Source: Acidobacteriaceae bacterium (lineage in GTDB: Bacteria; Acidobacteriota; Terriglobia; Bryobacterales; Bryobacteraceae). Taken from it: a stretch of DNA of 34,246 nt. The notes beneath the pieces were generated by a model that saw only the letters and a list, made by a program, of their open reading frames with translations, had not been told where the DNA came from and did not search any database. The DNA lies in assembly GCA_903970405.1 (NCBI GenBank), contig CAJCIT010000036.1, positions 1-34,246 of the forward strand, given 5' to 3'. The translations under genes were made by a program, and so were the position numbers. Below, piece by piece: positions 231-25,637 of this stretch (its first letter is position 1; the number at the start of each line of letters is the position of its first letter).

Positions 231-307
231 GCGCCCGTAGCTCAGTTGGATAGAGCGAATGACTTCGAATCATTAGGCCGGGGGTTCGAGCCCCTCCGGG
301 CGCACCA
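231..307 (+). tRNA. tRNA-Arg (anticodon TCG), CCA encoded
   Basis: The cloverleaf folds fully by eye. The acceptor stem GCGCCCG (231-237) pairs with CGGGCGC (297-303), followed by discriminator A304 and an encoded CCA (305-307). The D-stem is GCTC/GAGC. The anticodon stem AATGA/TCATT (258-262 with 270-274) encloses the loop CTTCGAA, giving anticodon TCG at 265-267, which reads CGA and, by wobble, other CGN arginine codons. The T-arm GGGGG-TTCGAGC-CCCTC has the standard TTCGA loop. No terminator hairpin is obvious just downstream. tRNA genes of this kind are common integration sites, and the stretch after it is accessory in character. Confidence 0.97.
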
Positions 308-988: not shown

Positions 989-1636
989 ATGTATGATCCG
1001 CCCGCACATCCGAAGATCTATCACATCACTCACATCGATAATCTCCCCTTGATCGTTGGGGGTGGCCTTGTCTCCGATGCCGCAATGATGGCCAGGGGTG
1101 GTCCCGCAACACCAGTCGGCATGTCCAAGATCAAGCAGCGGCGCCTGAAAGAACTCTTGGTCACTTGTCACCCGCACGACTTCGTGGGTGATTATGTGCC
1201 GTTCTATTTTTGTCCGCGTTCCGTTATGCTCTATATCCTTCATATGGGCAACGACCCCGAACTTACCTATCGGGGTGGCCAAGATCCCATCGTTCACCTG
1301 GAGGCGGACATGAAGGCGGTCGTAAAATGGGCGGACGAAGCCGGCAGACGCTGGGCATTCTCCCTGTCAAACGCGGGAGCCTACTATACCGAGTTCCGCA
1401 AGGACATCGCTAAACTGAACGAGATCAACTGGCCCGCCATTGCCGCCAGTAATTTTCGGCCGCCGGACATTAAGGAAGGCAAGCAGGCCGAGTTCCTTCT
1501 GCACGGTTCATTCCCGTGGGAGTTGGTTAGCCGTATTGGCGTCGGCTCTCAAATGATCGCGCAGCGGGCACATTCCGCTCTGGGCAGCGCAAATCACAGG
1601 CCGGTTATCGAGATCAAGACCGATTGGTATTTTTGA
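989..1636 (+). CDS. darT: DarT: DNA ADP-ribosyltransferase toxin
   Basis: The 215-residue protein matches the DarT family (DUF4433). These toxins transfer ADP-ribose from NAD+ onto bases in single-stranded DNA, which blocks replication and can abort phage infection. Family landmarks are clear: YHITHIDNL at 11-19, the arginine pair at 51-52 (NAD-binding arginine), DYVPFYFCPRSVMLY at 68-82, GGQDPIVHL at 96-104, and KQAEFLLHGSFPW at 165-177, whose Glu168 corresponds to the catalytic glutamate. The C-terminal KTDWYF is also typical. Length equals that of characterised homologues, so the toxin looks intact. In-frame upstream codons reach a stop (TAG) before any alternative ATG; no strong ribosome-binding site is seen. 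darG follows 13 bases downstream. Base composition is more AT-rich than the housekeeping genes, in keeping with acquisition. The arrangement resembles DarTG2, but the target base and sequence are not determined here. Confidence 0.93.
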   Translation: MYDPPAHPKIYHITHIDNLPLIVGGGLVSDAAMMARGGPATPVGMSKIKQRRLKELLVTCHPHDFVGDYVPFYFCPRSVMLYILHMGNDPELTYRGGQDPIVHLEADMKAVVKWADEAGRRWAFSLSNAGAYYTEFRKDIAKLNEINWPAIAASNFRPPDIKEGKQAEFLLHGSFPWELVSRIGVGSQMIAQRAHSALGSANHRPVIEIKTDWYF

Positions 1637-1649
1637 GGAACGCATCCAC

Positions 1650-2714
1650 ATGATCGAATTCAGAACAGGCGATATTCTCGCGCAGCAGGATGTCGAAGCT
1701 ATCGTTAACACTGTGAATTGCGTCGGCATCATGGGCCGTGGCATAGCCTTGCAGTTTAAGAATGCCTTTCCAGAAAACTTCAAGGCGTATCAGTTGGCCT
1801 GTGAGCATAAGGAAGTCCAGCCGGGCCGCATGTTTGTCTTCGAGACCGCCAAACTGAATGGCCCCCGGTATATTATCAATTTTCCAACCAAGCGTCACTG
1901 GCGCGGGAAAAGCCGGATGGAAGACATCGACTCTGGTTTGAAGGCGCTTGTTACGGAAATCGGTGCCCGGGATATTCGTTCCATTGCGATCCCGCCCCTT
2001 GGCAGCGGCCTAGGTGGGCTCAATTGGGAGGATGTCCGGCCGCGAATCGAGCGTGCCCTGGCCGGGCTCGAAAACTTTGTCGCTTTTGTTTATGAGCCCA
2101 AGGGGGCTCCCAAGGCCCGCGACATGGTTTCCTCCCACAAGGTGCCGAACATGACGCCAGGCAGAGCGGCACTTGTGGTCCTGATGGATCGTTATCTGAG
2201 CGGCCTGCTTGATCCTTTTGTCACGCTTCTGGAAGTGCATAAACTGATGTATTTCATGCAAGCGGCAGGACAGAAGCTGAGCCTCAACTATGTCAAGGGT
2301 CCCTACGGCCCCTATGCGAACGAGCTTCGACATGTGCTGACGAAGATCGAAGGGTATCTTGTCTTCGGTTATGCTGATGGGGGTGATGCGCCCACTAAAC
2401 AGTTGGAGCTTGTGCCTGGCGCGGTTCAAGATGCTGACGCGGTGCTTAAGGAAGATGAAGCAGCCCGGCACCGGTTCGAGCGGGTAGCTGACCTGGTGCA
2501 GGGTTTTGAAACTCCGTTCGGCCTTGAGCTTCTCTCAACCTTGCATTGGGTTGTCACTCAGGAGGGAGCTACTTCCGCAGATGAGGCGGTTCAACTGACT
2601 TACAGCTGGAACGACCGGAAGCGTCAATTCAGCAAACATCAAATCAGGCTGGCTCTTGATGTGCTCTCGACCAAAGGCTGGATAGGCCCTGGCTTTCCTG
2701 TATCTACACGCTAA
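1650..2714 (+). CDS. darG: DarG: macrodomain antitoxin (DNA ADP-ribosylglycohydrolase)
   Basis: 354 residues. The N-terminal macrodomain (about 1-150) shows GDIL at 7-10, IVNTVNCVGIMGRGIALQF at 18-36, INFPTKRHW at 76-84 and PPLGSGLGGLNW at 115-126. Lys81 in the FPTKRHW motif matches the catalytic lysine of characterised DarG proteins. This domain removes ADP-ribose from DNA and so reverses DarT action. The C-terminal part (about 170-350) contains KLMYFMQAAGQKLSLNY and KGPYGPYANELRH, a module typical of DarG that inhibits the toxin by direct contact. A GAGGA ribosome-binding sequence overlaps the darT stop codon, 10 bases before this ATG, so the two genes should be translated from one message. 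Toxin first and antitoxin second is the usual darTG order. Confidence 0.93.
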   Translation: MIEFRTGDILAQQDVEAIVNTVNCVGIMGRGIALQFKNAFPENFKAYQLACEHKEVQPGRMFVFETAKLNGPRYIINFPTKRHWRGKSRMEDIDSGLKALVTEIGARDIRSIAIPPLGSGLGGLNWEDVRPRIERALAGLENFVAFVYEPKGAPKARDMVSSHKVPNMTPGRAALVVLMDRYLSGLLDPFVTLLEVHKLMYFMQAAGQKLSLNYVKGPYGPYANELRHVLTKIEGYLVFGYADGGDAPTKQLELVPGAVQDADAVLKEDEAARHRFERVADLVQGFETPFGLELLSTLHWVVTQEGATSADEAVQLTYSWNDRKRQFSKHQIRLALDVLSTKGWIGPGFPVSTR

Positions 2715-3886: not shown

Positions 3887-3900
3887 GGTGCTCGCCGACG

Positions 3901-4181
3901 GAGCCGCGACCGTCAGGGAGCGACCGGTCGGCGGTCCCGGATGCAATGGCGATCTGACTCGCTTACTGAACCGCGCGTAAAGAAAGTAAGCAAGCGGGTG
4001 ACGGCAACCAATCATATTCAATCGGTCCAGATTTTCCCAAACTTCAGGCAGGAAGCGACTGCGGCGACGGGGAGCTGCGGGTTTACCCGCTTGCTCACGC
4101 GCGCGGTTCAGAAGGAGGGCGTCGGGCCGGTCCCGCGAGCGTGTGGAACAGCAACCGGTCGCTCCCTGACGGTCGCGGCTC
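3901..4181. repeat. Nested inverted-repeat element, about 280 bases
   Basis: The outer arms are a perfect 28-bp inverted repeat: 3901-3928 (starting GAGCCGCGACCGTCAGGGAG) and 4154-4181. Inside are two further arm pairs: CTGAACCGCGCG (3966-3977) with its complement at 4100-4111, and GCAAGCGGGT (3990-3999) with its complement at 4085-4094. The inner arms are in register with each other, so the unit could extrude a long, partly paired hairpin. It encodes nothing recognisable. A degenerate relative with the same two end motifs lies at 25675-25743, so it belongs to a dispersed family. Confidence 0.85.
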
Positions 4182-4285
4182 TGAAGGCTTGCGGGCGTCT
4201 ATGGCAAGCGCCAATTTCTTCGCGCCTTTTCGGTATCGAGGAGCGACCGCAGCCTCTCCACATTACGAGATATACATTGAGAAAC

Positions 4286-4327: not shown

Positions 4328-7300
4328 CTACGCACCGGCCGAGCGCGACGGAGGATCCTCGGAGCCTCGAGTATGCACCAGATCGAAGATCTCCAAATGC
4401 TCCGGTTGACCCGGCCCCTTCACTTTACGAGCGAATTCAACCGCGTCGAGATTATCCTCGGCATCGGTCAGATTCGGATCCAATGCCAACGCTTTCTTCC
4501 AGTTATCCACTGCCTTCGTGCGCGCTTGCCCGGACCCGTCGTCTACAGCCCACATGCCGACGCCGAGATTAAAAAGCGCCTCAATCAGCGTGCCATCCAA
4601 GTTGGATGCCTTCTCCCACTCGACGATTGCCAGATCCCGCTCCCGCAGTTTCTCGTAGCAGTTACCTAAATTGAGGTGCGCGGGAGCAAACGTCTCATGC
4701 AGCCGGACGGCCTCCATGTAGGCGTCTCGCGCTTCCTCGATGCGTCCCATTCGATAATTGCTGCTACCCAGGTTGTATCTCGGAACGAATTGATTCGGCG
4801 CCAGAGCGGCGGCCTGCGCATAGCATTCTTGTGCTCTGTCCGGCTGATCGAGACCGTCATACGCTGTCCCCAGGTTGTTGTGCGTTAGAGGTTCTTCCGG
4901 CGCCAGCCCACAGACAATCTCCCACTCTTGAATTGCGCCTTCGTAGTCGTCCAATTTATAAAGCGTATTGCCCAGGAGACGTCGATACTCCAGATTCGGC
5001 TTGGACAGATCAAGCGACGCCGCCCTTCGGTACTGTCCGGCGGCGGCTCGCAAATTCCCTATTCTGGCTTGGACAGTGCCAAGAGCCGCGTAGAGTTCGG
5101 CGTTCTTCGGATCGGCGGCCAGTTTCACGGCGACCTCCTGAGCACCGCGCAAAACCATGAGGAATTCAGCCGCCTCTTTGGGCGGCGTGTCGCCGCTGTT
5201 TACCGCATCCAGGGTGGCAACCGCCTTCTGGTAGTCATCCGCTTGGGCGTAAGCCCTCGCCAACTCCATCTGGATTTCTAATACTGAAGGGAACGCCGTT
5301 CTGGAGGCCTCCAACTCCTGGACTGCCTCGGCGAATTTGTCCTGCTGCGACAGGCAGCGGGCTAAGCTGAGCCGGGAAGAAACATTTTTCTCATCCAGGC
5401 GAATGGCCTCACGAAGCTCGATCACGGCGTCATCCAGGCGCCGCAGCCGCCGCAAGGGGACGTGCATGCCATCGTGAAACCACGCAATGTCGGGATTCAA
5501 TTCGATCGCCTGCTGAAGCTCCTGCAGCCCTTCTGTCCAATACCTCCGTTTTCGCGCCGCGCTGGAGACATAATCGCCCTGAAAGGTGAGCGCATAGCCC
5601 AAATTCGCGTGAATTAACGCCTGGTGGGGCGCCAATTGGCTGGCGCGAGAGTAAGCGTCAATGGCTCGCCGATATGCCCCCGTCTCGTAAAGGCAATTGC
5701 CCAATTGGCTGAAATAAGTCGAGCTTGCGGGGTCGAGTTGCGTTAGTTCACGATAGAGGCGAATGGCCTCCTTAAAAGCCCCCCGCTGGCGGAAAGTGTT
5801 TGCGATCTCCTCTCGCCAAGCGGGATCGTTGACAACCCGCGCCGCAAGCCGATATTCGGCCGTTGCTTCCTGGGTGCGATTCAAGGCGTCGTAGATTCTC
5901 CCGAGTTCGAAGTGATAAGGCACCTCTTCCGGTTGGAGGCTTTTAGCCATCGAGATGGCTTCAAGCGCTTCCTCGTAGCGTTTGAGTTCATAAAGAGCCC
6001 TCGACAGTGCTTGATACCCCAGCGCGAGAACGTGTTTCGGGACCTCGCTGGACCCCAGTACCGGCACCTCCGGAAATTCGCAGCGGATGTGCTCTCTCAC
6101 CCGGGCTCGAAGGCTTTGGCTGACAACCACGGCGGGCTTTTCCTTCGGGATCGAGTTGAGCAACTCAATGATCTGCTTACCCTCCTGCTCAGAAAGAACT
6201 TCATCTCCGCTTCGGGAGGCGAGCCTCGACGCCAGGCTGGGCGCCAGCGGCAAGACGGGAAGCAGCAGCCGGACTGTTTCCTGGTTCCGCACGGCCAATG
6301 ACCGGACCCCCAGGCGGGCGGCGAAAACACAGGCATCGATATCCAACTCTGCTATCGCCTGGCCCTCGGCTACAAGTATCGGAGAGTCCTCCAGTTCGGA
6401 GAAATGGTAGACGCTGATGCGCTCGCCGCCTTGTATCACCTCTCGTAAAGACAATAGACTATCCAAAATGCCCACTAAGTTCGCAATGGAAACCTGTTCG
6501 TCGAGCAGACGCCGCAGAATCATCGTCAACCGGCGTTGAAATAATGGCGGGACGCCGAAATGGGTCCGTACATCCTTGACGAGATCCTGCGCGTTCCGCA
6601 GATTTTCCAGCAGCAAGTGTACGATCGGGGATGTCAGCAAGCTACCGGCGATCGCTGCCATGGCAGGCAGGGCTGAGTTCTTGAGAAAACCGGACGGACC
6701 AGCGAGAAAATCGGGGCTGATTTTCGTCACGATTTCGGGAGAATCCTCCCCGCAGAGAAACCAAGATCCGAGAAGGGGATCGAATAGCTCGAAAGTCTCG
6801 ATTCCGTGCTTAGTGACCTCCGACTTACTTCTCAGGATTACGATTTCGGTGCGCGCCAGGCCGCGAATGACGGGCAAGTGGATGTCGTTGAGCTGAATTT
6901 GAAACTCGCCCGGCAGCAACGGCCCGGATTCGACGCGGACCGGGGGACAGATGAGACCGAAGCGGCTATTGAGATCCTTCGCAAGGTCCGAGGCGAATTT
7001 CTCATATTCAGGCCTGTATTGCGCGCTACATTCTTCCGGACAGATGGCGATGCGTATGCCTAAGACAAGCTCCGAGGTTTGCTCGATGGCCTGTTCGAAC
7101 AAATAGGCGGCCTCGGATTCGGAGGCGGTGCCGTCCGGGTTGGCGCAGACGAAAGCCCGGGCGTGGCGGAGCGAGAAATTGTATTTCGCGAACGCACGGA
7201 GAAACGAAAGAAAGGCGCCGGGGGACCAGCCGTTGCGGTAGCCGTTCGCATCGGCTGCGCCCCAATCCGTGGCTATTGAACGCGCCAGATCGCTGGTAAG

Positions 7301-7621
7301 CAGAAATTCCCGGCTTTGATAGAGGGCCAAACCGATCAATGCGGCGACATCTTGAACCGACGGCTGTTCCGGTAGGAAGGGCTGTGGCCACCAACGCGAT
7401 CGGCAGGGCCTGCCGCCAGCCACAATGCTGACTAACTCTGTTTCGGACCAAGTCTGCCGGGGCAGGCCGGTGAGTGAAACAGTCACCGCCGCGGGCAACC
7501 CCAGATCGGCGCACAAGGCGGCCGCATACTGGCTGACCGCTGCTTCCACTTTGGCCAGGTCCGCGAACTGGGGTAGCTTAATTTCCAGCGGCAGCGGATT
7601 GGCTATCGGGTTGGGTGGCAT
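4328..7621 (-). CDS. Large protein with FlhA/FHIPEP-like central domain and C-terminal TPR array
   Basis: About 1097 residues, soluble, with no signal peptide or membrane helix. Numbering below is from an in-frame ATG two codons upstream. Residues 1-185 are unassigned. Residues 185-532 resemble the cytosolic domain of FlhA/FHIPEP export proteins: FGLICPPVRVESGPLLPGE at 223-241, DEQVSIANLVGILDSLLSL at 376-394, and a VVVSQSLRARV strand-helix at 500-510 leading to FPEVPVLGSSEVP at 518-530. The eight-helix membrane channel of true FlhA is absent. Residues 533-1065 form about a dozen TPRs, for example YEEALEAISMAKSLQP and THNNLGTAYDGLDQPDRAQE. I start at 7621 because AAGGA lies five bases before that ATG; the next ATG upstream (7627) sits directly on the AAGG. 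The start lies inside the 3' end of the preceding gene (44-base overlap), so translation is probably coupled. A role in protein-protein assembly is likely; a secretion role is unsupported since no export genes are nearby. Confidence 0.85.
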   Translation of the reverse strand: MPPNPIANPLPLEIKLPQFADLAKVEAAVSQYAAALCADLGLPAAVTVSLTGLPRQTWSETELVSIVAGGRPCRSRWWPQPFLPEQPSVQDVAALIGLALYQSREFLLTSDLARSIATDWGAADANGYRNGWSPGAFLSFLRAFAKYNFSLRHARAFVCANPDGTASESEAAYLFEQAIEQTSELVLGIRIAICPEECSAQYRPEYEKFASDLAKDLNSRFGLICPPVRVESGPLLPGEFQIQLNDIHLPVIRGLARTEIVILRSKSEVTKHGIETFELFDPLLGSWFLCGEDSPEIVTKISPDFLAGPSGFLKNSALPAMAAIAGSLLTSPIVHLLLENLRNAQDLVKDVRTHFGVPPLFQRRLTMILRRLLDEQVSIANLVGILDSLLSLREVIQGGERISVYHFSELEDSPILVAEGQAIAELDIDACVFAARLGVRSLAVRNQETVRLLLPVLPLAPSLASRLASRSGDEVLSEQEGKQIIELLNSIPKEKPAVVVSQSLRARVREHIRCEFPEVPVLGSSEVPKHVLALGYQALSRALYELKRYEEALEAISMAKSLQPEEVPYHFELGRIYDALNRTQEATAEYRLAARVVNDPAWREEIANTFRQRGAFKEAIRLYRELTQLDPASSTYFSQLGNCLYETGAYRRAIDAYSRASQLAPHQALIHANLGYALTFQGDYVSSAARKRRYWTEGLQELQQAIELNPDIAWFHDGMHVPLRRLRRLDDAVIELREAIRLDEKNVSSRLSLARCLSQQDKFAEAVQELEASRTAFPSVLEIQMELARAYAQADDYQKAVATLDAVNSGDTPPKEAAEFLMVLRGAQEVAVKLAADPKNAELYAALGTVQARIGNLRAAAGQYRRAASLDLSKPNLEYRRLLGNTLYKLDDYEGAIQEWEIVCGLAPEEPLTHNNLGTAYDGLDQPDRAQECYAQAAALAPNQFVPRYNLGSSNYRMGRIEEARDAYMEAVRLHETFAPAHLNLGNCYEKLRERDLAIVEWEKASNLDGTLIEALFNLGVGMWAVDDGSGQARTKAVDNWKKALALDPNLTDAEDNLDAVEFARKVKGPGQPEHLEIFDLVHTRGSEDPPSRSAGA

Positions 7622-10600
7622 TATCATCCTTCATTCGCGAGGCGACGGCGGGAATCAGCTCGCGGCGAGACAGCACGCTCACATCAAGGTTCTCAACCAT
7701 CTTCCAGACAAACGGCCGGAGGGCGGCGCTGGTGAGAAGAACGGCACAGCGCTTCCCGGCCTCGCGTTTTGCGCTCAATGCAACCAGGCGAACTTCCTGG
7801 CGGATTTCGGTGGATGGAGCCATCATTGGCTCGGAAGCGGTCCAATCGATGGTCTTGTAAATGCGGTCCTCCAAGTCGCGAGTCAAAGCCTTCACTGAGG
7901 CGGGCTCCTGTTCCGAATTCCCCCACAACTTGCTTCGGATCTGAGGCAGCGATCGGATCTCTTCCGCTGTGCTCATCATGCTAAGACCGCGCTGGCGGCA
8001 ACGGCGAAACTCCGCAACGATGACGGCAAATTCGGAGATTGGCGTCTTTTCATTGAGCAGCGCTTTTAGGACCCAGGTGAGCGCGAACAGGGCCCCGCCA
8101 TTGTCTTGCAGATCCAAATAATCTGAGCCGTCCTGTTTTGCGAGTTCGCGAAGTTGGTAAGTACAGTCCTGCGAAGAGTAGAAGTGGGCGGCCATCCGCA
8201 GCGCGGCCTGCTTGATGGAAAGCGTTATTTCATCCCATTGCGCTTCCTGGGCCTTGTCCTTCTGGAGTCTCTCAAAGAGCTGAGGCACGCCGCGAACCAG
8301 GAGCCGGTACAGGCCTTGCTCGAACGCCGTGTTGTCCCGGAAGTTGACTCCGGGCAAAACAAATCCGGCGTCGGTCTTCAATGACTCGCGTAGCCCGGTA
8401 ATCCTTTGACGCAGTCCGTCGGGGAAATTCGAGTCGTCGAAACCCAGCTCCGAAATGGACAGATTCGAGAACTCCACCTCAATCAGCCGGGGCGCCTCGG
8501 TTTTGGCCAACGGATCGTCGTAAGTGTTACCTGCTATCGCTTGACGGCCAAGCGAAGTAAGTAACCTATCCCGATAATCCTGGTTTTGAGGATCGAGCCG
8601 GCACGCCATCTTGCGTGTTTCCAGAGCCAGTTGGCTCATCGTGACGAGCGAGTCTCTGTTTCTTGCATCGCCGGCGGCGCTTGACGGCTCGGCGGTCAAT
8701 TGCCTGGTTCTATTTTCATAAGCGGTTGCCAGCGAGTGATGATAGGCCGGCAAGCCTTTGCAATGCTGCTCCGCTTTCTTATACAAGTCGATGACCGCAT
8801 CGTAATCCGCGTCTTTTGAAAACCAAGGCCAGTCCGGGCAGGTTCTGAAAACGAAGTCATCGCAACGCGAAAGCCGCCATGATTTGTAGTTACAGGATTT
8901 CGGATCGTAGCCTAAGGATCTTTCCACGCCTCCGTCAATCAGCGAGTTCAGCTTCAGTAGCCGGGCCGGATCGGTGGTGGAAGCCAGCAGAGTGAGGGCG
9001 GCCTCAAAACCCTCCGGGTAGTAGAAAGTCAGAATGTGATTGCAAATCGCCCGGCTTCCTTGCTGTTCATCGCTTCGCGACCTCCAGAGTTTCGCCAAGA
9101 CCAGCAAGGCAAACACCTCTCTGTCCCCGAAATCAGGCCAAAGGCTGTCGCTCGCGATGAGTCCTTCGATAGTTCCGAGGAGGTTGCCAATCTGAGGGGG
9201 GCTGAGATACTCTTTGAACGACGCAAGAGTGCTCTTCTCTTTCAGAAAAGTAAGAAGCGGTTCGCTCAATTCATCGAATTGAGTGATTTTGACTTGCTGG
9301 CGGAGCGCACGCGGCCGGCTCTCCTCGAGTGAGCGCGCCGGCTGTTGCTCCGATTGCGTCTTGTTTCCAATGGTATCTACAGCCTTCGGCTGGCTTAGAG
9401 CGGCGTCGGAGACTTCAGGCGGGGCCGGTTCATTGCGCTCCGAAAACACGTTCGCCAAAGCGGCCGGAGGCAACTCCGCGCTGTGCTCAATCAACATCTT
9501 GGTCAACCCGCCGGCCAACTTCCTGGACGCCTCATCGCCCCACTTGAGCGCGGAGAAGTGGTTATAAACCGCCATGACGCTGTTTGGATACAATCGAACT
9601 GCTTCCTCCAGAAGACCCAGCGCCTTCCTTAGTTGCGCGTCCGTGCCGGTGCTCACCTCAAAACGAAGATAGTAATTGAAGCAGGCATTTCCGTAATCGT
9701 TCAGGGCATAATGTAACGCCTGGCAGGTTGCAGTCTTATCGAACTTGCCGGTGTCTGAGAGGCTTCTCGCCCGTTCCGCGAGCCGCCGGTATGCATCCAG
9801 CATTGTCGAGTTCAGCAATTCATAGTAAGTATTCCGGCTGCTGCTTTGCGAATCGGGGTCGCTGGCGGCCACCGATCTGTCAGCCAGAAGCGCTTCCTGA
9901 TAATCGAGAACTGCCTGGTTAAGCAGGCCGGCGGCTCTCAGGGTGGCTTCCTCTTCCGGCTCGTCCGGAAGCTTCGGGAGGGCGGCGCACTCCACCTCCA
10001 CCCGGGCCAGGCAATATTTCAAATCCCCGACGAATGTTTGCGCGACAATCTTCTGGAGTTCAATTCCGGTTCGCAGCTTTCTTCGGGCATGATCCAAATC
10101 GCCAACCAGCCAGAGTAAGTAGCCCTGACCGATCAGGGAGGTGATGTTGGCCGGGTTCACTTTCAGGACGGCTTCATACTTTCCCACCAGGTCGTCGACG
10201 CGCGGCTTCGTGATGTCGTCGTTATCCCGCGCCAGCAGGTCGGAAAAGAAGGCGAATCGATAGAGAGTAATCTCCGAGTCAGGATTCAGTTCGCGCGCTT
10301 CATTCAGATAGCTCAGCTTTTGGGGCGGTCCGGGCGCCAGTTGGGCCTTGGCCAGCAACAGAAAGATCCGCACGCGGGCGGGAGTGCTCTCAGCCGCGAA
10401 AGCATCGGCCAACTGCAGAGCATTCAGGGCTTTGCCCGAATCGGCAAGCAGGGAATAGGCCAGCGCAGCCACGGCAAATGTTTCGCAAAGATCCTCGCGA
10501 GCCTTCTCATATAGTGACTTGCGCCAGATGGGTTCAGAAACGGCGTCTTGGGCCAGTGCGATCGCCGACGTGGGCAAGGCCTCAATGAGTTGCTCCAGAC

Positions 10601-11759
10601 TGGCAGGCAGCCGCGCGCTTCCGTGAGGGAGGAAGGCGTTGTAGCAGTGAGCAAACAGCTCAGTGGCGCCCTTCAGCTTTGGCCGGGTTTCGAAAATGGG
10701 ATTGCGCTGGCGTCCCGCCATCTCTGAGACAAGCCGGCGGTAAATGAGGCAGCGCGAGTACCCCAGCTTGGTCTTCGCTTCCGCATCGAGGGCGGCTCTG
10801 AGTCCGGTGGATTCCCACGAAACCAGCCAGTTGTACTTGAGCGCGATTCGCTTCATCAGCCGGTGCGTGGGGCTGGCCCTCAACTCGTCGAGTGACGACC
10901 GGTACATTTCGAGAGCGCGGTCATAGGCATCGATGGTGTTCGAGGTCTCAAAGTCCTCGGCTTCCACGGCGCGGGCCAACGCCCGCAGCGCGTTGGTCGG
11001 GAACAGCGTCATCTTATCTTCGAGATCGGTCTCAATCTGTTTATAGATCTCCGTCGCGGCGCTGGAGTAGACGCGCTCCACCAGACGCGAATATTCGGTT
11101 GAACTCAGCGTGGCGCGGTCGTTTTTCCCATCGGGGCTGCGCTCTAACGGAAGACGCACCGGATAGGCCAGAGTGAACGAGTTGCCTTCCGCGCCGATGC
11201 GAACGCGCGGCCAGACATGAAGCATCCATCCGTCGTCCTCTTCTTCGCGGATGGCATAGCTTCCTTCAATATGGAAGTGTGAAGTGGGGTTGGTCCCTTT
11301 CGCCGCTCCGACAGCAGGATTTTCGAGTAAGGAAAAGCGGCGAACACGCCGGTTGAGGCGTTCAGTCAGGTCGAAGCTGAGCAGGTTCATCTGGTCGATT
11401 CGATCCACTGTGAAGCGAGCGCCAGGCGTCGAGTCCACGTTCGCGAAGGCCTTCATCGAAAAGGTGTAGCGAAACGGCTCCTTCGATTGCTTAAAAAGGA
11501 AGCCAGTGTAACGCGCTAGCACCCAGACCGCCGCCGCCACGAAGAAAACGAGAACCGGAAGGAAGGCGAATTTTCCCAAACCGGGAGCCAGTTTGGAGAG
11601 GTCGCCAAGTTTCACCAGTAGAGCGATCTGGCTTAGGCCGGAGACCACCGCGATAACGAGGCTCCATCTGCCGGTATAGCGCCTGGATTCCAGGGTCTTC
11701 TCGATGCCTTGCAGGCTGTCGAGCGTCTTGGTCTCTGGAATCCAGTCGGTGAGCGTCAT
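7578..11759 (-). CDS. Membrane-anchored helical-repeat protein with C-terminal FHIPEP-like domain
   Basis: 1393 residues. Two hydrophobic helices lie at about 33-49 and 63-88, followed by a large cytoplasmic part. Residues 100-260 form an unassigned domain with strands (HFHIEGSYAI and DGWMLHVWPRVRIGAEGNSF). Residues about 260-1088 are helical, with TPR-like pieces such as KYEAVLKVNPANITSLIGQG and ALGLLEEAVRLYPNSVMAVY. A low-complexity linker occurs near 770-830. From about 1089 to 1369 the order of motifs again follows the FlhA cytosolic domain: GFVLPGVNFRDN at 1132, KTPISEFAVIVAEFRRC near 1238, and AVLLTSAALRPFVWKMVENL near 1339, ending in SVLSRREL. The likeness is weaker than in the downstream gene. 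With its partner it forms an isolated two-gene unit, this protein presumably holding the complex at the membrane. Family and function are not established. Confidence 0.85.
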   Translation of the reverse strand: MTLTDWIPETKTLDSLQGIEKTLESRRYTGRWSLVIAVVSGLSQIALLVKLGDLSKLAPGLGKFAFLPVLVFFVAAAVWVLARYTGFLFKQSKEPFRYTFSMKAFANVDSTPGARFTVDRIDQMNLLSFDLTERLNRRVRRFSLLENPAVGAAKGTNPTSHFHIEGSYAIREEEDDGWMLHVWPRVRIGAEGNSFTLAYPVRLPLERSPDGKNDRATLSSTEYSRLVERVYSSAATEIYKQIETDLEDKMTLFPTNALRALARAVEAEDFETSNTIDAYDRALEMYRSSLDELRASPTHRLMKRIALKYNWLVSWESTGLRAALDAEAKTKLGYSRCLIYRRLVSEMAGRQRNPIFETRPKLKGATELFAHCYNAFLPHGSARLPASLEQLIEALPTSAIALAQDAVSEPIWRKSLYEKAREDLCETFAVAALAYSLLADSGKALNALQLADAFAAESTPARVRIFLLLAKAQLAPGPPQKLSYLNEARELNPDSEITLYRFAFFSDLLARDNDDITKPRVDDLVGKYEAVLKVNPANITSLIGQGYLLWLVGDLDHARRKLRTGIELQKIVAQTFVGDLKYCLARVEVECAALPKLPDEPEEEATLRAAGLLNQAVLDYQEALLADRSVAASDPDSQSSSRNTYYELLNSTMLDAYRRLAERARSLSDTGKFDKTATCQALHYALNDYGNACFNYYLRFEVSTGTDAQLRKALGLLEEAVRLYPNSVMAVYNHFSALKWGDEASRKLAGGLTKMLIEHSAELPPAALANVFSERNEPAPPEVSDAALSQPKAVDTIGNKTQSEQQPARSLEESRPRALRQQVKITQFDELSEPLLTFLKEKSTLASFKEYLSPPQIGNLLGTIEGLIASDSLWPDFGDREVFALLVLAKLWRSRSDEQQGSRAICNHILTFYYPEGFEAALTLLASTTDPARLLKLNSLIDGGVERSLGYDPKSCNYKSWRLSRCDDFVFRTCPDWPWFSKDADYDAVIDLYKKAEQHCKGLPAYHHSLATAYENRTRQLTAEPSSAAGDARNRDSLVTMSQLALETRKMACRLDPQNQDYRDRLLTSLGRQAIAGNTYDDPLAKTEAPRLIEVEFSNLSISELGFDDSNFPDGLRQRITGLRESLKTDAGFVLPGVNFRDNTAFEQGLYRLLVRGVPQLFERLQKDKAQEAQWDEITLSIKQAALRMAAHFYSSQDCTYQLRELAKQDGSDYLDLQDNGGALFALTWVLKALLNEKTPISEFAVIVAEFRRCRQRGLSMMSTAEEIRSLPQIRSKLWGNSEQEPASVKALTRDLEDRIYKTIDWTASEPMMAPSTEIRQEVRLVALSAKREAGKRCAVLLTSAALRPFVWKMVENLDVSVLSRRELIPAVASRMKDDNATQPDSQSAAAGN

Positions 11760-23234: not shown

Positions 23235-25637
23235 TTGCCACCCGTCGATTCACGCCCCGCCGAAACCAACGCCGTTCCAGTGAAGCGAAGTTGGCCCCAA
23301 ATCTACTTCGGGGTCGCTTTCACGACGCTCGCCACTCTGCTGTTAGAGCTTTCCCTGACGCGGGTTTTTTCAGTCATATTTTTCTATCATTTTGCGTTTC
23401 TCGCCATCTCAATCGCCCTCTTCGGCCTGGGTGCGGGTGGCGTGTTTTCATACGTCGTCGCCGGTTGGCGGGGAACGCTGTTCAGCAAACTGGGGCGTCT
23501 GGCCATCGCGAACTCGTTTGCCATTGTCGGCTGTCTGGTTTTCCTTCTCACCCAACAGCCGCCGGTCACCATCGGGAAGCTGGCCGCGGTGTATTTTTGC
23601 ACCTCCATTCCCTTTCTGCTCTCAGGCGCCATCGTCTCGCTGGCCATTGCCGACACCGTGGAGCGCGTTGACCGCGTTTACTTTTTCGACCTTATGGGCG
23701 CCGCCGCCGGCTGTGCCTTGCTGGTGGCTTTTTTGAATTTCATCGGCGGTCCGAACACAGTGATCGTTGCGGCGGCGCTTTTCGCTGTCTCGAGCGCCGT
23801 TTGGTTCAACCTCGCCAAGTCCGCCCGCGGGCGCATCGTCTCGGTCACACTGGCGCTGGCGCTGGTCGCGCTCATTACCTACAACGCCAAGAACTCCGTG
23901 CTGGATGTGCGCTACGCCAAGGACAAGGAATTGAAAGGCGAGGAGTTTGTGAAGTGGAACAGCTTCTCGCGCATTGCCGTCCAGCCCGAGCCGGGCTCCA
24001 GCATGAAGAGCATCGTCATCGACGCCGACGCCGCCACCGGCATCGCGAACTTCGATATCGATCGTCTCTCGGTCAAAGAAGTCGAGGATCTGCGGTTTCA
24101 CGGCCCCGGCTTCCCGTATCTGTTGCGGCCTGGCGCGAAGGCGCTCATCATCGGACCGGGCGGCGGATGGGATGTGGCCCGCGCTCTTGCCTCCGGCAGC
24201 AAAGACATTACCGGTGTCGAGATTAACCCGATCATCGCCACCACCATCATGCGGCAGCGTTTTCCCGATTACAGCCAGCGCCTTTACTTCCGCCCCGAGG
24301 TGCGCATCGTCGTGGAAGACGGCCGCTCTTTCGTGCGCCGCAGCCCCGAGCGCTACCAGGTTTTGCAGGCCACGCTTGTTGACACGTGGGCCTCCACAGC
24401 CGCTGGCGCTTTCGCCCTTTCCGAAAACAATCTCTACACCACCGATGCTTTTCGCGACTACCTGACTCATCTCACCGGCGACGGCATCATGGCCTTTACG
24501 CGTTGGGGCTTTGTGCCCCCCCGTGAATCGTTGCGTGCCGTCGCGCTGGCCCAACGCGCTCTCCAGCAACTCGGGGAGAACGACGCCGCGCGCCATATTA
24601 TGGTGGTGCGGGAGGATGTCGGTAAACTCCAGGGCTGGGGCGCGCAAGATACCATCCTTGTCTCCCGCAATCCGTTCTCGCCAGGCGATATCGCGACGGT
24701 GCTGAATTCGCTCGGTCCGGCGAAGATGGAAGCCGTCTATGTACCGGGAACCGCCCGCGCCACTCCCTTCCGCGACTTATTACTGAGCCCGAATCCCCAG
24801 ACCTTCTTTGAGAGTTACACCTTCGACGTGCGGCCCGTCAGTGACGACCGGCCCTTCTTCTTCTTCACCGTCCAGCCCCGCGATCTTTGGCATTACTTCC
24901 TGACCGGCTCGCATGAGACCGAGGATTACAAGGTCAATCGGGCGCTTCCATTGCTCTTCGGGTTAGTGGCCGTCAGTATCGTTGCCACGCTGATCATTCT
25001 GGCTCTTCCGCCGCTGCTGCTGGGCCATCGTCTGCCGCGCCAGCCCGGCTCCCTGAAGTCTCTGCTGTACTTTCTCGCTATCGGCGCCGGATACATCCTC
25101 ATCCAGGTGGCGCTCATTCAGAAGTTCGTTCTCTTTCTCGGGCACCCCACTTACGCGCTGACGGTGATCATCTTTTCCATGCTCGTCTTCAGCGGTCTCG
25201 GCAGCCTGCTCAGCAAGAAGGTGATTCGGGATTCGGACCGCCGCCTACAGCAAGTGTTGCTGACCATTGCGGCGTTGGTCGGCGTTCTGGCGATAGTGGT
25301 GACGCCCATCACAGAAGGCGGCGTCGGCTTGCCGTTTGCGGTAAAGGCTTTGATTTCCGTCCTGCTGATTGCCCTGCCGGCCTTCGCCATGGGTATGCCA
25401 TTTCCAACCGGACTCGGACGCCTGGAGAAAACGATGCCGGCGTCAGTGCGCTGGGCTTGGTCCATCAACGCCGCGTCCAGCGTGCTGGGCTCAGCCGGCG
25501 CTATCTTCCTGGCCATCTATCTCGGCTTACAAACCACGCTCATGATCGGCGGCGCGCTTTATCTCTGCGCGCTGCTGACCGCGAGCTTCTCACCGCTGAT
25601 GCACCGCCGCGCGGCGGCACGCGCCCAGCCCTACTGA
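23235..25637 (+). CDS. Membrane protein with spermidine-synthase-like core
   Basis: About 800 residues. The N-terminal part (20-215) has about six or seven membrane helices, beginning FGVAFTTLATLLLELSLTRVFSV, a motif typical of membrane-embedded spermidine-synthase-like proteins. A soluble domain (about 215-560) follows with the nucleotide-binding loop ALIIGPGGGWDVA, the acidic VEINP strand end and VVEDGRSFVRRSPERYQV, matching the SAM/decarboxylated-SAM site of aminopropyltransferases. Another set of about six helices closes the protein (570-795). The real substrate is unknown, and the usual catalytic Asp region reads LVDTWAS. The start is uncertain: TTG 23235 is directly after GGAGG (too close), and GTG 23280 is possible; no in-frame ATG lies near. 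Confidence 0.8.
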   Translation: MPPVDSRPAETNAVPVKRSWPQIYFGVAFTTLATLLLELSLTRVFSVIFFYHFAFLAISIALFGLGAGGVFSYVVAGWRGTLFSKLGRLAIANSFAIVGCLVFLLTQQPPVTIGKLAAVYFCTSIPFLLSGAIVSLAIADTVERVDRVYFFDLMGAAAGCALLVAFLNFIGGPNTVIVAAALFAVSSAVWFNLAKSARGRIVSVTLALALVALITYNAKNSVLDVRYAKDKELKGEEFVKWNSFSRIAVQPEPGSSMKSIVIDADAATGIANFDIDRLSVKEVEDLRFHGPGFPYLLRPGAKALIIGPGGGWDVARALASGSKDITGVEINPIIATTIMRQRFPDYSQRLYFRPEVRIVVEDGRSFVRRSPERYQVLQATLVDTWASTAAGAFALSENNLYTTDAFRDYLTHLTGDGIMAFTRWGFVPPRESLRAVALAQRALQQLGENDAARHIMVVREDVGKLQGWGAQDTILVSRNPFSPGDIATVLNSLGPAKMEAVYVPGTARATPFRDLLLSPNPQTFFESYTFDVRPVSDDRPFFFFTVQPRDLWHYFLTGSHETEDYKVNRALPLLFGLVAVSIVATLIILALPPLLLGHRLPRQPGSLKSLLYFLAIGAGYILIQVALIQKFVLFLGHPTYALTVIIFSMLVFSGLGSLLSKKVIRDSDRRLQQVLLTIAALVGVLAIVVTPITEGGVGLPFAVKALISVLLIALPAFAMGMPFPTGLGRLEKTMPASVRWAWSINAASSVLGSAGAIFLAIYLGLQTTLMIGGALYLCALLTASFSPLMHRRAAARAQPY

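Follow-up and report, generated by a model that had tools for sequence, protein, structure and literature searches.

The FlhA/SctV cytosolic domain without its export channel in a gene pair of an Acidobacteriota bacterium

FlhA and SctV have been treated as parts of one machine only, which raises the question of what their cytosolic domain might be doing in a pair of genes lying away from any flagellar or injectisome gene. The pair in question is found in an Acidobacteriaceae bacterium (NCBI GenBank assembly GCA_903970405.1), on a stretch of 34,246 nucleotides of contig CAJCIT010000036.1 that was analysed as a whole and is referred to here as the window. Its two genes, named P1 and P2, are both on the minus strand with P1 downstream of P2; a previous sequence-only reading of this DNA had described them as two large overlapping genes, and both open frames are indeed present and overlap by 44 nucleotides. 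Our analysis places the FlhA/SctV cytosolic domain (FlhA-C), made up of subdomains SD1 to SD4, in both products, accompanied in P1 by an array of tetratricopeptide repeats (TPR). The two copies belong to two lineages that we call C1 and C2. The parts of the pair are as follows:

7578-11759, minus strand: P2, 1393 amino acids, with two predicted membrane helices, a small alpha/beta domain, a helical solenoid and an FlhA-C domain of the C1 type
11604-11660, minus strand: predicted membrane helix 1 of P2 (residues 34-52, from hydropathy)
11514-11570, minus strand: predicted membrane helix 2 of P2 (residues 64-82, from hydropathy)
9435-11468, minus strand: alpha/beta domain and helical solenoid of P2 (residues 98-775, from the AlphaFold2 model)
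7623-8513, minus strand: FlhA-C domain of P2, C1 type, SD2 mostly gone
7578-7621, minus strand: overlap between the end of P2 and the start of P1, 44 nucleotides given a P1 start at 7621
4328-7621, minus strand: P1, 1097 amino acids, with an N-terminal segment, an FlhA-C domain of the C2 type and a TPR array
7067-7621, minus strand: N-terminal segment of P1 (residues 1-185)
6029-7015, minus strand: FlhA-C domain of P1, C2 type, with the SD1 to SD4 stretches all there
4421-6037, minus strand: TPR array of P1 (residues 529-1067, 30 predicted helices)

P1 could also start at another ATG, six bases upstream, which would extend the gene to 4328-7627; its relatives begin at the position equivalent to 7621.

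The export-gate domain in P1 and P2

P1 and P2 each carry the FlhA/SctV cytosolic domain, and the export channel is absent from both. Against the Pfam family FHIPEP (PF00771), with a curated cut-off of 29.1 bits, P1 scored 41.0 bits over residues 206-533 (expect value, E, 1.2e-10) and P2 56.5 bits over residues 1178-1371 and a second stretch (E 2.4e-15), both scores lying above the cut-off and both matches being restricted to the cytosolic part of the model (positions 348-656 of 657). Comparison by hhalign with five FlhA proteins from the host and related genomes, including the host's own, returned probabilities of 97.7% for P1 (E 2.1e-12) and 99.3% for P2 (E 4.4e-20), the best probability among the controls (reversed FlhA and 20 column-shuffled profiles per query) being 1.9%. 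A domain of this kind in both proteins was the central claim of the sequence-only reading, with profile and structure searches set beforehand as its refuting test; in the profile search FlhA-C was matched by both regions, and the proposed borders, residues 185-532 in the smaller protein and 1089-1369 in the larger, proved correct to within about 20 residues.

The same reading had noted the lack of the eight-helix channel, and the N-terminal channel domain of FlhA/SctV was accordingly found in neither P1 nor P2 by Pfam or hydropathy, which detected two segments in P2 and a weak one in P1 (residues 320-338, inside its FlhA-C). As expected for proteins in which the channel is absent, P1 and P2 came nowhere near the NCBIfam whole-protein cut-offs, scoring 34.5 and 47.8 bits of the 772.1 set for FlhA, and 38.8 and 38.7 bits of the 692.25 set for SctV. 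The two membrane helices attributed to the larger gene are likewise predicted in P2, where the AlphaFold2 model, covering residues 1-860 with a mean predicted local distance difference test score (pLDDT) of 74.7, has helices at residues 10-51 and 66-92, of low and modest local confidence, respectively. The helical repeats that had been assigned to both proteins form a clear TPR array in P1, but the corresponding part of P2 is not TPR by Pfam (best E 0.15) and is predicted to be a helical solenoid.

Two lineages of the domain in a wider family

The family proved far wider than the window pair, and more general than the earlier reading could see. Searches with P2, with residues 1-540 of P1 and with the FlhA-C part of protein P0018 collected 72 proteins, 39 of which first came from the P0018 search; these lists are lower bounds, because each search scored only the approximately 8000 candidates richest in common words, and true FlhA proteins (about 700 residues) are excluded by design, since the P0018 search admits only long proteins. 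P0018 itself matched strongly, as a single sequence, the solved SctV domain 6wa6 (E 1.7e-21) and FlhA 3myd (E 1.1e-16). With an FlhA-C profile built here the domain was detected in 68 of the 72 proteins, the other four (P0019, P0020, P0021 and P0023) having the front of P2 and no FlhA-C by this profile. Of the 39 proteins first obtained with P0018, all but P0070 have TPR families in their precomputed Pfam list (38/39). A simple scan for hydropathy predicted at most two membrane helices in any of the 72.

Within this family the FlhA-C domains of P2 and P1 are different paralogues, belonging to the C1 and C2 lineages, respectively. The domain of P2 matched the C1 profile with an E of 2.6e-45 versus 3.5e-13 for C2, and that of P1 matched the C2 profile with 1.1e-34 versus 1.1e-19 for C1. 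In a rapid maximum-likelihood tree built from 96 domain rows, with the five FlhA proteins as outgroup and with SctV and the partial C1 of P0014 left out, the 57 C1 rows grouped with a Shimodaira-Hasegawa-like approximate likelihood ratio test (SH-aLRT) support of 99, and the 11 P1-type and 23 tandem C2 rows grouped with a support of 87. Of the 72 proteins, 23 have C1 followed by C2 in a single chain; P0055 and P0056 combine the membrane front of P2 with C1 and C2 in one chain, and P0014 has a P2-like front and a partial C1 linked to the N-terminal segment of P1 and C2. Besides P0014, each of the 10 rows of alignment A2, P1 among them, contains this segment, which was assigned to no family and by hhalign reached at most 1.6% against the C1, C2-tandem and FlhA profiles. 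The window has its genes in the order P2-P1, that is, C1-C2 on adjacent genes. Given the two lineages, the one-chain tandems and the kept order, the pair can be taken for a tandem divided between two genes, or else the tandem for a product of fusion of the pair.

The lineages differ in what they keep of SD2. In the available text of PMC9163089 the SctV cytosolic domain consists of SD1 to SD4 with SD2 inserted in SD1, the nonameric ring requires SD3 and SD4, one SctV still supported some secretion after deletion of SD2, and the cleft between SD2 and SD4 is the docking site of the TPR chaperone YscY; the portion of PMC8223533 at our disposal describes a ring held by contacts of SD3, whose conservation exceeds that of the rest of the cytosolic domain. 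Located through an alignment of P0018 with YscV, the SD2 stretch measures 12 to 23 residues in the window-type C1 domains (15/15), 55 to 63 in other C1 domains (40/42), 59 to 69 in tandem C2 domains (21/23), 55 to 59 in P1-type C2 domains (11/11) and 55 to 66 in FlhA (5/5), the exceptions to the full span being P0065 and P0068, each in both of its domains. The stretches of SD1, SD3 and SD4 are retained in proteins of P2's kind and all four in those of P1's kind. Judged from these spans, P2 appears to retain the parts needed for a ring and to have lost most of the docking clamp, and P1 would have room for both. Identity to FlhA amounts to 20-22% in SD3 and 17-19% in SD4 for both kinds of window domain, and to 10% in the SD2 of P1's kind, so that the latter is conserved in length more than in letters. 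At the site of the E-P-A-F of FlhA, which we take to be the Salmonella dimple, P1 has a D-P motif, with FDP in nine of the 10 rows and FNP in the other.

Compared with known systems, the pair resembles FlhA/SctV in having SD1, SD3 and SD4 in both proteins and an SD2-length stretch in P1, and in the membrane attachment that precedes the domain in P2. It differs in lacking the eight-helix channel, in having two predicted membrane helices on P2 only, in the long repeat array fused in cis, and in the distribution of the domain as two lineages over two genes, one of them, P2, with little left of SD2. P1 further shares the TPR fold of the type III chaperones SctY/YscY and LcrH/SycD, a fold that cooperates with the SctV cytosolic domain according to the available text of PMC9163089, although the array of P1 is far longer and lies on the same chain as its domain. 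P1 stays below the NCBIfam cut-offs for these chaperones (96.1 of 104.8 bits for LcrH_SycD and 37 of 70 for SctY) and the MamA model outscores both, which makes the chaperone likeness generic. Unnamed proteins combining TPR with tandem FHIPEP domains, such as P0063 (Thermoanaerobaculia) and P0068 (Nordella sp. HKS 07), have C1 and C2 in the same order as the pair, together with TPR repeats; unlike the pair they are single chains with the TPR before C1, the membrane front is absent from 21 of the 23, and SD2 is shortened only in P0065 and P0068, the other 21 of the 23 having its length in both domains. The literature searched, which comprised open-licence papers only, yielded no paper on such proteins, on a split tandem or on a use of the domain outside secretion. 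The defining parts of type III systems were looked for and are lacking; the domain itself is well known.

Source names within the family look automatic, examples being 'FHIPEP family type III secretion protein' and, for the tandem proteins, 'type III secretory pathway component EscV/tetratricopeptide (TPR) repeat protein'. Another TPR and FlhA-C protein, P0040, bears a name pointing to a Hodarchaeota assembly; FlhA is not known from archaea, and a binning error or contamination may explain this entry.

A proposed docking platform outside secretion

Here one component of a secretion machine has probably been put to use outside that machine, and a membrane-attached docking platform is its likely new form. 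From the computed features, i.e. domain identity, lineage, C1-C2 order, near-loss of SD2 and lack of the channel, we infer an assembly, its partners and a purpose as follows, giving the whole a probability of about 0.5. C1 on P2 and C2 on P1 would come together beneath the inner membrane to make up a docking platform, with the helices of P2 as anchor and the TPR array of P1 as a partner-binding arm. The two predicted membrane helices would tether this platform at the inner membrane, and C1 and C2 would lie side by side through SD3 and SD4, like the ring subunits of FlhA/SctV. The TPR arm of P1 would be placed beside the SD2 stretch of C2 and may hold clients in cis, whereas type III secretion brings clients on separate TPR chaperones in trans; the platform itself would take no part in export.

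The occurrence of the genes bears on this last point. P1 was found in two of the 257 genomes of the order (host included), with P2 directly upstream in both, and the front of P2 in the host alone among 396 genomes of the phylum; among 100 relatives P2 was found in none, except for six short matches, four of them within the region shared with FlhA. That homologues come in pairs, as anticipated by the sequence-only reading, is seen in the window and in a second genome, G580, where P1 is truncated by the contig end; P0006/P0027 and P0008/P0032 are likely to be two further pairs, judging from their equal longest contigs (14,645 and 14,619). In the draft of G580 (96% complete) we found no FlhB and no FHIPEP match beyond the pair, which argues against an export role, and neither FlhB nor FHIPEP was found in the two Balneolaceae genomes that have the P2 front (completeness not given).

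Several observations weigh against the platform as proposed. With identities to FlhA as low as those given above for SD3, SD4 and the SD2 of P1, the ring contacts and the docking surface may be lost, and the assembly of C1 and C2, their contacts and the membrane location of P2 are all conjectural. The five models of P1 are uneven (mean pLDDT 64.8 to 80.6, predicted template modelling score 0.53), and in the fold search with P1 the TPR arrays occupied the list, leaving the FlhA-C part barely tested. The grouping of the C2 rows, at 87 only, falls below the star of the tool and involves long branches in a tree with no SctV rows. Moreover, the host has a full-length FlhA (811 bits) beside FlhB on contig C217, and the G580 draft is spread over 640 contigs, a single missing one of which could hide both flhA and flhB.

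It is tempting to speculate, more tentatively, that in scattered bacteria paralogous C1 and C2 domains, on one chain or on two genes, form a membrane-attached hetero-ring outside secretion, with TPR arms capturing clients in cis. If true, this would be the first export-gate ring operating without an export channel. A channel-free TPR family that uses the docking domain, often in tandem, and that has at least one draft genome with no detectable gate among its carriers, would mark the ring domain as a portable module; it would offer simpler systems in which to study partner recognition by this domain, and it corrects the automatic annotation, in which these proteins are labelled as components of type III secretion.

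Neighbouring genes and rival explanations

The docking platform has two main rivals, a role in defence and one as a flagellar accessory, and both can be confronted with the surroundings of the pair. To its right lie rapZ, hpf and rpoN, and to its left:

231-307, plus strand: tRNA-Arg (tcg), left edge of the stretch ending at rapZ and a possible insertion site
989-2714, plus strand: DarT and DarG (macro domain) toxin-antitoxin pair, PADLOC scores 223 and 440 bits, about 1.6 kb from P1
3524-3886, plus strand: short frame with a partial match to the Uma2 nuclease family, perhaps a remnant

As part of a defence or conflict system, P1 and P2 would be a repeat scaffold tethered to the membrane, detecting an invader and passing the signal on to an effector. 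Such a role would agree with the patchy occurrence of the genes, with the nearby DarTG pair and with the position of the locus: none of 12 relatives, viewed over up to 10 kb, has a P1 or P2 match after rapZ, and the genes found there differ by eye in most of them (L066 and L068 being alike), which indicates a variable site. A transposase-like gene, with integrase-core and helix-turn-helix Pfam matches of which one only exceeds its cut-off, lies upstream of the pair in G580. On two Balneolaceae contigs (L006, 10001-16578; L005, 889-5931) a relative of the P2 front, with TPR repeats replacing FlhA-C, is followed after 26 and 270 bases, respectively, by a patatin-like lipase (phospholipase) gene, confirmed by Pfam in L006 and recognized by sequence likeness in L005, where the contig end cuts it. 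These hints would suit an accessory role, possibly one in defence, without demonstrating it. We nonetheless hold a defence system to be unlikely: at an E of 0.01 PADLOC returned no family for P2 and only a weak generic TPR model for P1 (E 7.3e-7), Pfam revealed no effector domain in either protein, the Balneolaceae relatives are devoid of FlhA-C, and a single adjacent defence pair may be a coincidence.

Alternatively, the pair could gather chaperone-cargo complexes near the export gate of the host or modify its FlhA ring. The host does have flhA and flhB, lying side by side, and the shared domain is, in the accessible part of PMC8166844, the cargo-docking part of FlhA. This flagellar accessory role is nevertheless improbable, given the rarity of the genes, the G580 pair standing in a draft genome with no FlhA or FlhB found, and the composition of the window, in which the 27 frames scanned with Pfam include no flagellar, injectisome or export-channel family besides P1 and P2. 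The pair is thus not encoded with other export-apparatus genes among these frames, much as the sequence-only reading had stated for flagellar and injectisome genes. A minimal secretion or membrane-insertion device, in which the FlhA-C platform feeds another channel, would account for a membrane anchor combined with a domain of the cargo-docking type, but with no export-channel family in the scanned frames and at most two predicted membrane helices throughout the collected proteins it is very improbable.

Two further features of the window complete the description of the locus:

23235-25637, plus strand: frame of 800 amino acids, no Pfam family
3894-3937 and 4145-4188: inverted repeat of 44 nucleotides, 84% complementary, with its arms 207 nucleotides apart, just past the end of P1

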